Positions 7,810-15,069 of a stretch of DNA of 64,000 nucleotides are shown one piece after another. Origin of the DNA: Planosporangium mesophilum (GTDB lineage Bacteria; Actinomycetota; Actinomycetes; Mycobacteriales; Micromonosporaceae); assembly GCF_016863255.1 (NCBI RefSeq), contig NZ_BOON01000001.1, positions 62,001 through 126,000 of the forward strand, read 5' to 3'. Below the pieces are notes generated by a model. It saw only the letters and a program-made list of their open reading frames with translations. It was not told the DNA's origin and did not search any database. Position 1 is the stretch's first letter. Each line of letters opens with the position of its first letter. Both the position numbers and the translations under genes were made by a program.

Positions 7810-9567
7810 GTGAGTGAACGTACGGAGCTGAACCACCCGGTGGGTCGGGTGCTGGGCACCGCCGACGCCACCCCGCTGACGTTCTGGGTCGCCGTGGCGG
7901 CGGACGCGTACCTGCAACTCGACGACGTGGTCGTCACGGGTCGCGAGCTGCCCGACGGCACGACCGTCACGATCGCCGGGGTGGTGACGGCCGTACGGGC
8001 CCGCCACGAGGGCGCCCAGTTCGACTCCGACGTGTTCGCCATCGCCGAAGGCACGCTCCCGGCCCAAGTCCAGGAGGCGGCCGAGGTCACCACGACGCGG
8101 GTGCTGCCCGAGGTGTACGTGCCGCCGTCGCCCGGCGCGGTCGTGCACCGGGCCGAGGGCGAGGCCCGGGACAGCGCGCTGTACTTCGACCGGATGCAGC
8201 GCAAGGTCCCGATGGGCTTCGGCCGCGACGGCGCGCCGGTGTACCTCAACGCCGACTTCCTCGACGGCAGCCGCGGCGCGCACGTGTCGATCTCCGGCAT
8301 CTCCGGCGTCGCGACCAAGACCAGCTTCGCGACGTTCCTGCTGTACTCGGTGTTCCGCTGCGGCGCGCTCGGCGGCGCCGGCGAGTCCGCCAACTCCCGC
8401 GCGCTGATCTTCAACGTCAAGGGCGAGGACCTGCTCTTCCTCGACCACCCCAACACGCGGCTGGACGAGGACACGATCGACGCGTACAACAAGCTCGGCC
8501 TGACCGCCGGGCCGTTCCCGGATGTACGGGTCTACGCCCCGCCCCGGGCCGGCGACTCCTCCGGCACACCGGACGTGAGCAGCCGCCACGCCGGGGTGGA
8601 CAGCTTCTACTGGACCCTCGCCGAGTTCTGCGAGAACCGGCTGCTGCCGTTCGTGTTCGCCGACGCCGACGACGAGCGGCAGCAGTACACGATGGTCGTG
8701 CACGCGGTGACCGCCCACCTGGCCCGGGTGGCGCAGCCCGCCGACAGCGGGGTGGTGATCGACGGTACCCGCATCGGTGGTTACGCCGAGCTGGTCGACT
8801 ACCTCGTCAACCAGCTCAACGACGACGCCACCCGGGGAACGTGGGCCGGCAGCGCGGTCGGCCTCGGTACCGTCAACGCGTTCGCGCGGCGGCTGATCGG
8901 CAGCAAGAAGGACCTGGCCCGGCTGATCCGCGGCGACCTCGCCGTGCGCCGCCCGCACCAGATCAACACCGCCGAGAGCGCCCAGGTGACCGTGGTCGAC
9001 CTGCACAACCTGCCGGACCGGGCGCAGCGGTTCGTGGTCGGTGTGACGCTGAAGAGCGAGTTCGAGCGCAAGGAGAAGGCGGGTACCGCCAAGCCGCTGC
9101 TGTTCGTGGTGCTCGACGAGCTCAACAAGTACGCGCCGCGGGAGGGGTCGAGCCCGATCAAGGAGATCCTGCTCGACATCGCCGAGCGTGGCCGCTCGCT
9201 GGGCGTGGTGCTCATCGGCGCCCAGCAGACCGCGAGCGAGGTGGAGCGGCGGATCGTGTCCAACTCGGCGATCCGGGTGGTCGGCCGGCTCGACCCGGCC
9301 GAGGCGTCCCGGCCCGAGTACGGGTTCCTGCCGCCCGCGCAGCGCCAGCGGGCGCTGCTCGCCAAGCCGGGCACGATGTTCGTCGGGCAGCCGGAGATCC
9401 CGGTACCGCTCTGCGTGGAGTTCCCGTTCCCGTCCTGGGCGACCCGCCCGTCCGAGGCGGGTTCGCCGCCGAACGCCACGCTCCGCTCGATCGTGCAGGC
9501 CAGCGACCCGTTCGTGGTGGTCGGCGCGTCGGCCAACGGCCTCGAAGACGACGACATCCCGTTCTAG
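7810..9567 (+). CDS. HerA-like ATPase/translocase (first gene of a resection operon)
   Basis: A 585-residue FtsK/HerA-superfamily ATPase. The first 110 residues form a beta-rich HAS-barrel-like domain (LNHPVGRVLGT...LDDVVVTGRELPDGTTV). The RecA-like core has SGISGVATKTSFATFLLYS as its P-loop region (Lys170), the Walker B segment LLFVVLDELNKYAP (Asp436-Glu437), and VVLIGAQQTASEVERRIVSNSAIRVVGRLD as sensor/motif III. The P-loop departs from GxxGxGK(S/T). HerA hexamers pump DNA for the NurA nuclease in archaea. The gene lies 12 nt before sbcD and heads a five-gene operon. GTG 7810 follows AGGAGGGGG. Confidence 0.85.
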   Translation: MSERTELNHPVGRVLGTADATPLTFWVAVAADAYLQLDDVVVTGRELPDGTTVTIAGVVTAVRARHEGAQFDSDVFAIAEGTLPAQVQEAAEVTTTRVLPEVYVPPSPGAVVHRAEGEARDSALYFDRMQRKVPMGFGRDGAPVYLNADFLDGSRGAHVSISGISGVATKTSFATFLLYSVFRCGALGGAGESANSRALIFNVKGEDLLFLDHPNTRLDEDTIDAYNKLGLTAGPFPDVRVYAPPRAGDSSGTPDVSSRHAGVDSFYWTLAEFCENRLLPFVFADADDERQQYTMVVHAVTAHLARVAQPADSGVVIDGTRIGGYAELVDYLVNQLNDDATRGTWAGSAVGLGTVNAFARRLIGSKKDLARLIRGDLAVRRPHQINTAESAQVTVVDLHNLPDRAQRFVVGVTLKSEFERKEKAGTAKPLLFVVLDELNKYAPREGSSPIKEILLDIAERGRSLGVVLIGAQQTASEVERRIVSNSAIRVVGRLDPAEASRPEYGFLPPAQRQRALLAKPGTMFVGQPEIPVPLCVEFPFPSWATRPSEAGSPPNATLRSIVQASDPFVVVGASANGLEDDDIPF

Positions 9568-9579
9568 AGGAGTGGACCG

Positions 9580-13214: not shown

Positions 13215-14161
13215 GACTCCACGTCGACGGCTGGGACCCCGGCTACGGCACGTCGTTCGACGGCAGCGGCGAGGGCCCGGCCTCCCAGAGCTCCGCCGAG
13301 ACCGTCACCGACATCGAACTGCCGGAGTCGGACTGGCGTCCGATCCCGCGCCGCGACGACCTGCGCGGCCCGTCGACCGTCCTGCTCGTCGACGGCGTAC
13401 GGCGCATCGACGCCGGCGTCTGGGTCACCGGGGACGACGGCGTGCCGCACCGGGGGCTGGCCGCCTCGTACGCGGCCGGGGTGGTCCGCTGCGACCTGGA
13501 GCGCGGCGTTGCCGACGTGGCCGGCGCTCTGGTCAAGCGGGGGCTGTTCACCTCCAGCCCGACCGCGAACGACGTCCTGGTCGGCCGGGTCCGGTACACC
13601 GCGCACCAGATGGGCCGCGACGACCAGGCCACCCTCACCGGCGGCGTGCAGGCCCAGCTCGCCGCGCTGGAGGCCGACGTCTCCGGCGCGGCACGGGTCG
13701 ACAACGACCTGCTCGTGGTCGACGGCCCGCTGAAGAACCGCCAGCACCTGCCGCGCGCGATCGGGTACGTCAAGACCCACCGGGTCGAGTACCTGCCGGC
13801 GTCGCTGACCGCCGTCGTCACCGCGCTCAAGGCGCAGGAGCGCACCCCTGTCTTCCACGTCGGCACCAACTGGCAGCGGTACGCCTGGTACCTGCGGCTG
13901 CCCACCACGTCGAGCGCCCCCTGGGCCGGCGTCGTCCGCATCGAGTGCGCAGCCGAGCTGGACAAGGCGGAGGCGGTGGCGCTCGCCGACCTGTCCGTCG
14001 TGACGCTGCCCCGGTTCGCCTCGTCCTCGTACAAGGACCCGCGCGCGCCGCAGAACCTCGTACCGATCGCCGGTCTCGAACGGCGGCTGCGCTCGATGCT
14101 CGGCGACGGCCGGCTGCTCTACCGCACGCTGGTCCTCGCCGCGCGTACGGTCATCGGGTGA
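13211..14161 (+). CDS. NurA-like nuclease
   Basis: A 316-residue protein recognisable as NurA by its order of motifs. TVLLVDGVRRIDAGVWV has the first metal aspartate at Asp61. LLVVDGPLKNR is the second conserved Asp-Gly block, AIGYVKTHR holds the conserved lysine, and the tail reads TNWQRYAWYLRLP followed by WAGVVRIEC. NurA is a 5'-3' DNA nuclease that works with the HerA translocase in archaea and some bacteria. Similarity was judged from motifs only, but position behind HerA, SbcD and SbcC strongly supports the call. It overlaps sbcC by GTGA and its own stop overlaps the glycosylase start by GTGA. Confidence 0.8.
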   Translation: MRLHVDGWDPGYGTSFDGSGEGPASQSSAETVTDIELPESDWRPIPRRDDLRGPSTVLLVDGVRRIDAGVWVTGDDGVPHRGLAASYAAGVVRCDLERGVADVAGALVKRGLFTSSPTANDVLVGRVRYTAHQMGRDDQATLTGGVQAQLAALEADVSGAARVDNDLLVVDGPLKNRQHLPRAIGYVKTHRVEYLPASLTAVVTALKAQERTPVFHVGTNWQRYAWYLRLPTTSSAPWAGVVRIECAAELDKAEAVALADLSVVTLPRFASSSYKDPRAPQNLVPIAGLERRLRSMLGDGRLLYRTLVLAARTVIG

Positions 14162-15069
14162 CCGCCGTCCTGCCGGTGCGGCTTCTCACCCTTCCCGAGC
14201 ATTACGACCTGGCCGGGACGCTGTCCGGGCTCGCGGTGATCCGCAACGACCCGACGGTACGCGTCACCGCGCGCGAGGCCTGGTGGGTGACCCGGACCCC
14301 GGACGGGCCCGGGACGCTGCAGCTCGTCCGCGCGGGCGGGACGCTGGCCGCGCGGGCGTACGGCGCCGGCGCGGACTGGCTGCTGGAGCAGGCCGACGCG
14401 ATCGCCGGCCTGCGTGACGACCTGGACGGCTTCGCCGCCGTGGCCGGACGCCACGAACTCGTCCGCCAGTTGGCGCGCCGGCACCGGGGTCTGCGGATGC
14501 CCACCAGCGGCCTGGTCTTTCACCACCTCGTACCGGCGATCCTGGGTCAGAAGGTCACCTACCAGGAGGCGTTCCGGTCGTACCGGGCGCTGCTGCGCCA
14601 CTTCGGCGAGCCGGCCCCCGGCATGCCGGACATGACCCTCCCACCTGAACCGGCGTCGATAGCGGGTACTCCCTACTATCTTTTCCACCCCTTCGGGGTC
14701 GAACAGCGCCGGGCCGACACGCTGCGCCGGGCCGCCGACCGGGCCGCCGCGCTGGAGCGGGCCACCGACGCCGCCGACGCCGTCCGCCGGCTGGTGTCGC
14801 TGTCCGGGATCGGCCCCTGGACGGCGGCCGAAGTGGTACGGGCCTCGCACGGTGACCCCGACGCGGTCAGCGTCGGCGACTACCACCTCCCCAACTTCGT
14901 GGCCTGGGCGCTCGCCGGTGAGCCGCGCGCCGACGACCGGCGGATGCTGGAGTTGCTGGAGCCGTTCTCCGGCCACCGGGGGCGGGTCTGCCGGCTCATC
15001 CTGGCGGCCGGCATCACGGCGCCGAAGTACGGGCCGCGGTCGCCGATCCGGTCCTTCGCCCGCTACTGA
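14158..15069 (+). CDS. DNA-3-methyladenine glycosylase II (AlkA-type, HhH-GPD)
   Basis: A 303-residue base-excision glycosylase. After an N-terminal alpha/beta domain the HhH-GPD fold begins with GLVFHHLVPAILGQKVTYQEAFRSYRALL. The helix-hairpin-helix is LVSLSGIGPWTAAEV, and the catalytic aspartate is in SVGDYHLPNFVAWAL. No iron-sulphur cysteines are present, as expected for AlkA. Its GTG is embedded in the end of the NurA-like gene (GTGA), so it belongs to the same transcript as herA-sbcD-sbcC-nurA. This suggests that removal of alkylated bases and break processing are expressed together. Confidence 0.88.
   Translation: MTAVLPVRLLTLPEHYDLAGTLSGLAVIRNDPTVRVTAREAWWVTRTPDGPGTLQLVRAGGTLAARAYGAGADWLLEQADAIAGLRDDLDGFAAVAGRHELVRQLARRHRGLRMPTSGLVFHHLVPAILGQKVTYQEAFRSYRALLRHFGEPAPGMPDMTLPPEPASIAGTPYYLFHPFGVEQRRADTLRRAADRAAALERATDAADAVRRLVSLSGIGPWTAAEVVRASHGDPDAVSVGDYHLPNFVAWALAGEPRADDRRMLELLEPFSGHRGRVCRLILAAGITAPKYGPRSPIRSFARY

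Follow-up and report, generated by a model that had tools for sequence, protein, structure and literature searches.

In thermophilic archaea such as Sulfolobus, Pyrococcus and Thermococcus, the translocase HerA, the Mre11-Rad50 complex and the nuclease NurA are encoded in one operon in the order herA-mre11-rad50-nurA, with which the locus tags of T. kodakarensis are consistent. The subject here is a block of the same four functions, with bacterial sbcD and sbcC in place of mre11 and rad50, at 7810-14161 of a 64,000-nucleotide stretch (the window) of contig NZ_BOON01000001.1 from the 6.6-Mb genome of the soil actinomycete Planosporangium mesophilum. Sulfolobus HerA is in direct contact with Mre11-Rad50, and HerA, Mre11 and Rad50 co-precipitate (PMC2288612). 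The closest solved homologues of the HerA and NurA of the window are those of Deinococcus radiodurans (drNurA-HerA; PDB 7f6d and 7wrw), a pair that resects the 5' strand in vitro (PMC9960219). Recent structural papers present bacterial HerA-NurA as a Deinococcus-Thermus speciality acting without Mre11-Rad50, and a 2026 paper places bacterial herA-nurA only in that group. The individual parts, the archaeal operon and one bacterial four-gene case, in Oceanithermus profundus with the order nurA-hepA-sbcD-sbcC (PMC5448004), are already known. No description of an actinobacterial operon was found in the open literature, where an earlier mention in Constantinesco 2004 or Iyer 2004 is possible.

The four genes of P. 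mesophilum are read as a bacterial HerA-NurA/SbcCD operon whose products probably process double-strand DNA ends, a reading to which we assign a probability of about 0.77. A preliminary description of the locus, made from its letters, had proposed a single machine for end processing. The overlapping and conserved HerA/Mre11/Rad50/NurA operon supports it in that end processing is the most plausible function, and joint action is the part that we infer. The genes and the adjoining glycosylase gene are as follows.

7810 to 9567, plus strand: herA, Deinococcus-type HerA, putative hexameric DNA translocase, 585 amino acids (aa); profile match to D. radiodurans HerA, motif residues
9580 to 10740, plus strand: sbcD, Mre11 homologue, 386 aa; TIGR00619, phosphoesterase motifs
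10737 to 13214, plus strand: sbcC, Rad50 homologue, 825 aa; TIGR00618, ATPase and zinc hook motifs
13211 to 14161, plus strand: nurA, predicted RNase H-like nuclease, 316 aa; profile match, predicted fold, invariant residues
14158 to 15069, plus strand: AlkA-like HhH-GPD DNA glycosylase, 303 aa, accessory neighbour; NF007641, match to E. coli AlkA

These five consecutive open reading frames lie on one strand between 7810 and 15069. A spacer of 12 nucleotides (nt) separates herA from sbcD, and the later genes overlap by ATGA (sbcD/sbcC, 10737-10740), GTGA (sbcC/nurA, 13211-13214) and again GTGA (nurA/AlkA-like, 14158-14161), exactly as first described; the identities then proposed for the five products were borne out by profiles, fold and motifs. 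The start codon of herA is uncertain, with further in-frame ATG codons at 7780 and 7738. In gene layout, the window agrees with the archaeal operon: the four genes stand in a single row, and their starts are coupled.

Recognition of HerA and NurA required alignment profiles, and single-sequence searches with Pfam and NCBIfam miss both. On its own, the window NurA reached only E = 0.075 against Pfam NurA in a single-sequence search, and a scan of the genome with the Pfam NurA model gave no match; among 40 actinobacterial family members, 14 matched this model at E ≤ 0.01, the best at 5e-7. The profile built from these 40 relatives (A1) matched D. radiodurans NurA in the PDB (7f6d) with E = 4.8e-53 and Thermotoga TM1739 with E = 5.1e-20. 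For the AlphaFold model of the window protein (pLDDT 92.5), the best folds found by Foldseek were likewise TM1739 and D. radiodurans NurA. Z-scores were 24.6 to 1zup (T. maritima), 24.2 to 7f6d and 15.0 to Sulfolobus (S. solfataricus) NurA, and the TdpAB complex was also among the nearest folds, with a Z-score of 13.7 to its NurA-like fold. Mutation of D53, K201 or R309 kills drNurA (PMC9960219), and these residues correspond to D61, K188 and R278 of the window protein. The same three, together with E154 and D171, are invariant in 68 aligned homologues including cyanobacterial, Chloroflexota, Deinococcus and Thermotoga NurA. Identity is 88% to NurA of Planosporangium flavigriseum and 32% to that of D. 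radiodurans. By its significant profile match and conserved catalytic residues, the product of 13211-14161 is a true NurA, as had been suspected, with a predicted fold and with nuclease activity and dimer formation expected by homology.

The HerA profile (30 members) matched D. radiodurans HerA at E = 2.4e-194 over the full length (profile positions 3-549), covering the HAS barrel, RecA core and helix bundle; the window protein and drHerA share 53% pairwise identity. Residues with roles in ATPase activity and translocation in drHerA (PMC9960219), K175/T176, D220, D487/E488, R495, R513 and R552, are matched by K170/T171, D207, D436/E437, R444, R462 and R501. Walker A residues K170/T171 lie in an atypical GISGVATKT loop that drHerA also has, and D436/E437 form Walker B. 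In both Deinococcus partners, the tested residues (catalytic in NurA, for ATPase and translocation in HerA) are thus shared with the window proteins. Archaeal HerA models give barely any score to the protein. The product of 7810-9567, for which a profile check including the HAS barrel had been proposed, is a full-length bacterial HerA of the Deinococcus type, and by analogy with drNurA-HerA it would form a hexamer that binds NurA. A HerA-like protein with 25% identity to the window HerA is also encoded by Marinitoga camini virus 1 (KP836355.1, 38522-40144).

SbcD and SbcC are of the bacterial SbcCD type by profile and motifs. SbcD matched TIGR00619 (sbcd) at E = 3e-49, with weaker matches to archaeal Mre11 models; in the PDB, its best match was E. 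coli-type SbcD (E = 2.7e-32), compared with about 1e-8 for archaeal Mre11. Its phosphoesterase motifs SDWHxG, GDLYD, GNHD, THL and GHLH are intact, and it is the sole SbcD of the genome. SbcC matched TIGR00618 (sbcc) at E = 1e-77, again better than archaeal Rad50 models, and retains Walker A (32), the CPVC zinc hook (407), the LSGGE signature (727) and Walker B (760). The likeness to E. coli SbcCD in profile and motifs contrasts with the placement of the window SbcD in a separate deep clade, an SbcC of 825 aa and the common operon with HerA-NurA.

Linkage of the four genes is conserved far beyond chance: beyond Micromonosporaceae, it recurs in 18 families of actinobacteria, in a further four of the class Actinomycetes and on plasmids of other phyla. 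Within Micromonosporaceae, 148 of 151 genomes have NurA. In all 80 named loci of this family it lies directly 3' of SbcC, and all four genes were found in 75, the remaining 5 being cut by contig ends. Among 39 loci from the 18 other families, NurA adjoins SbcC or HerA in 38 and all four genes lie within 16 kb in 33; overlaps of 4 or 8 nt are frequent in these loci, and no additional gene was seen by eye to recur in the HerA-SbcD spacers. All 12 loci from four further Actinomycetes families read HerA-SbcD-SbcC-NurA. The arrangement is thus conserved in relatives, and none of the outcomes named beforehand as refuting the preliminary description (a missing NurA match, unconserved aspartates, unconserved order) was observed. 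The module is found in an actinomycete as described there, but a single unusual actinomycete is not its only host: almost every Micromonosporaceae genome carries it.

Co-inheritance points the same way. In a phylum sample of 296 genomes, 64 had a close NurA; HerA was present in all 64 and, without NurA, in 2 more, in counts that include related, non-independent genomes. SbcD proteins encoded with HerA-NurA group separately from the unlinked ones (support 100), and in a class sample this type is confined to NurA-positive genomes. The clade of linked SbcD and the co-occurrence of HerA and NurA therefore mean that the four genes are inherited as a unit with their own SbcCD. In this the window pair, in operon with a dedicated SbcCD lineage, differs from the D. 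radiodurans pair, which is treated in the literature as stand-alone. A second, far more divergent HerA-NurA type with NurA-HerA order was observed in two actinobacterial families (f18 and f67; loci L223-L227), and it adjoins an SbcD in all four f18 loci.

From the solved relatives, the following course of events may be proposed. SbcCD (Mre11-Rad50) would bind the break, nick or trim blocked, hairpin or protein-bound ends and pass the DNA end on to HerA, present as a hexamer with a NurA dimer as its cap. The hexamer would then pump the duplex into NurA, which would cut the 5' strand during translocation and leave a 3' tail for RecA. The HerA6:NurA2 assembly, the 5'-strand resection and the hand-over from SbcCD are all modeled on these relatives. 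Several observations weigh against this reading. Without nurA-herA, D. radiodurans shows a roughly 10-fold gain in resistance to UV and mitomycin C (PMC9960219), which leaves a straightforward repair function unsecured. The HerA-NurA pair of T. kodakarensis cleaves both strands, with no 3' overhang as product (PMC12977600). The linkage is also looser in a few genomes, with HerA at a distance of 10-16 kb or NurA unlinked. Two RecBCD-like pairs are moreover already encoded in the P. mesophilum genome, on contigs C5 and C57: one resembles AdnAB, with a UvrD helicase and a PDDEXK nuclease in each subunit, and the other is an AddAB-like pair of helicase-nucleases. Since both coexist with the module, HerA-NurA is no stand-in for them, and the idea of a substitute for RecBCD-type enzymes was abandoned. 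Mutual exclusivity of AdnA and NurA was not upheld either: in the phylum sample, strong AdnA matches fall in the class Actinomycetes and overlap NurA only in Micromonosporaceae, a contrast confounded with taxonomy and AdnA divergence.

Among the alternatives, DNA-degradation defence fares best, although we consider it unlikely as the main role. SbcCD and HerA-NurA would then destroy linear phage or plasmid DNA in the manner of SIR2-HerA and HerA-DUF4297, which like TdpAB combine a HerA-like translocase with a partner nuclease. Mobile elements speak for it. Complete modules were found on plasmids of Streptomyces (linear), Sphaerospermopsis (conjugative), Nostoc, Aulosira (mobilizable) and Ca. 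Chlorohelix, spanning three phyla (that of Streptomyces, the cyanobacteria and the Chloroflexota), with HerA and NurA annotated in these records as "ATP-binding protein" or "hypothetical protein". On the Ca. Chlorohelix and Aulosira plasmids, the module stands behind three further genes in the order sigma70-like, 200-aa unknown, ImmA/IrrE protease, NurA, HerA, SbcD and SbcC (L233:3577-12891 and L234:3387-12699). Between the two blocks, BLAST shows pairwise homology for the first four genes and profiles show it for the other three, and the seven-gene block is possibly a regulated mobile DNA-end cassette for defence or induced repair. On the linear Streptomyces plasmid (L228:702-16032), HerA-SbcD-SbcC-NurA lies beside a divergent IrrE-family protease, a ResIII/HA helicase and a restriction endonuclease. 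The TdpAB fold similarity of NurA and the antiviral role proposed in the literature for T. kodakarensis HerA-NurA also fit defence. Against it, the Micromonosporaceae copy is single and chromosomal, and its near-universal presence across the family differs from the patchiness of defence islands; the genome has no SbcD besides the one in the module; PADLOC matches to HerA are weak; and no close NurA relatives were found in phage records or viral contigs. At the module, no SIR2, DUF4297 or phosphorothioation partner was seen. The window thus shows neither the defence partners nor the mobile or patchy distribution of HerA-type anti-phage systems, and a defence role may apply to the plasmid copies elsewhere.

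Somewhat less probable still is a restraining role, in which HerA-NurA would hold back or redirect recombination as a check on RecF or AdnAB resection and would not be the main resection enzyme. The higher resistance of the D. radiodurans double deletion mutant agrees with this, Haloferax mre11-rad50 mutants are cited in the literature as doing likewise, and AdnAB and AddAB-like pairs are present beside the module. Intermolecular recombination is nevertheless about 10-fold lower in the D. radiodurans mutants, and 5' resection was directly measured in vitro (PMC9960219), both of which count against this role.

The glycosylase gene had prompted the suggestion that alkylation damage triggers the machine. 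In such a five-gene unit for the repair of alkylation breaks, which we regard as very improbable, the AlkA-like protein would make abasic sites and HerA-NurA/SbcCD would process the resulting breaks. The protein matched NF007641 (E = 6e-12) and E. coli AlkA (E = 6e-6) and carries the motifs GIG (217) and GDYH (240), with D241 presumably catalytic by analogy with E. coli AlkA. The unit is favored by the GTGA overlap of nurA and the AlkA-like gene in the window and by close adjacency (at most 100 bp from nurA) in 8 of the 80 loci from Micromonosporaceae, those of Planosporangium, Dactylosporangium and one metagenome-assembled genome. In most others of the family, however, AlkA lies 1-9 kb downstream behind unrelated genes for spermidine synthase-like, zinc-finger anti-sigma-like and secreted lipoprotein products or was not found nearby, and no AlkA was found near the module in the 39 loci of 18 other families. 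The synteny survey therefore excludes AlkA as a fifth module member; it is best seen as a loosely syntenic passenger, a neighbor only, and the alkylation trigger finds little support.

Gene order bears on descent. Two orders occur. One is H-D-C-N (HerA, SbcD, SbcC, NurA), seen in the window, in Actinomycetes and in several further families; the other is N-H-D-C. Loci with H-D-C-N form one clade in HerA trees (support 98), and N precedes H in every other lineage with known order here, including cyanobacterial, Chloroflexota and distant actinobacterial ones; this is a quick tree of bacterial sequences with some long branches. Oceanithermus, with its four genes side by side, has N-H-D-C like many actinobacteria; it is a single thermophile, for which later recruitment of SbcCD was proposed (PMC5448004), whereas the actinobacterial module is widespread and has its own SbcD clade. 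Because H-D-C-N is a single derived clade amid N-first lineages, it is best read as having arisen once, within Actinomycetota, from N-H-D-C, and the archaeal-like order of the window would reflect a convergent move of nurA and not archaeal inheritance. The term "archaeal-style" in the preliminary description consequently holds for gene content and order and fails for the proteins, all four of which are bacterial-type, in a host that has AdnAB and AddAB-like enzymes as well. Direct acquisition of the four-gene block from thermophilic archaea, suggested by content and order equal to the archaeal clusters, is rejected as extremely improbable by the profiles, in which bacterial relatives are far better matches for all four proteins, and by the tree.

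The flanking genes of the window at 6764-7609, 15083-16510 and 16547-17911 encode a RibD_C reductase, a short-chain dehydrogenase-like protein and a cytochrome P450, with no relation to DNA repair. A damage-box search revealed no convincing LexA or PafBC box upstream of herA in the window. Upstream of herA in about half of the 80 Micromonosporaceae loci compared, there is a common block CTGTCG(C/T)A(C/T)-N8-CAGGAT-GC with promoter-like spacing, whose likeness to a PafBC site is limited to its TGTCR part. In the corresponding region of the window (7720-7790), GGGGCAGGATGC is retained and TGTCG is not.

Seen as an end-processing operon, the locus alters the picture of HerA-NurA in bacteria. Instead of being restricted to Deinococcus-Thermus, the operon is common in Actinomycetota and is also found on plasmids of cyanobacteria and Chloroflexota, and it includes an SbcCD of its own. 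The module also accounts for a group of genes annotated as "ATP-binding protein" or "hypothetical protein". As a tentative extension, for which the odds are clearly below even, it may represent an MRN-like machine for resection, widespread in bacteria and largely unannotated, whose HerA-NurA pump would have a dedicated SbcCD lineage as its obligate loader, with the archaeal order reached by convergence. Such a machine would work beside AdnAB and, on plasmids, would serve as an end-processing or defence cassette under ImmA/IrrE control. The mesophilic hosts of the operon, including Micromonospora, Salinispora and Actinoplanes, are tractable in principle and would allow the cooperation of Mre11-Rad50 with HerA-NurA to be studied alone or against AdnAB.

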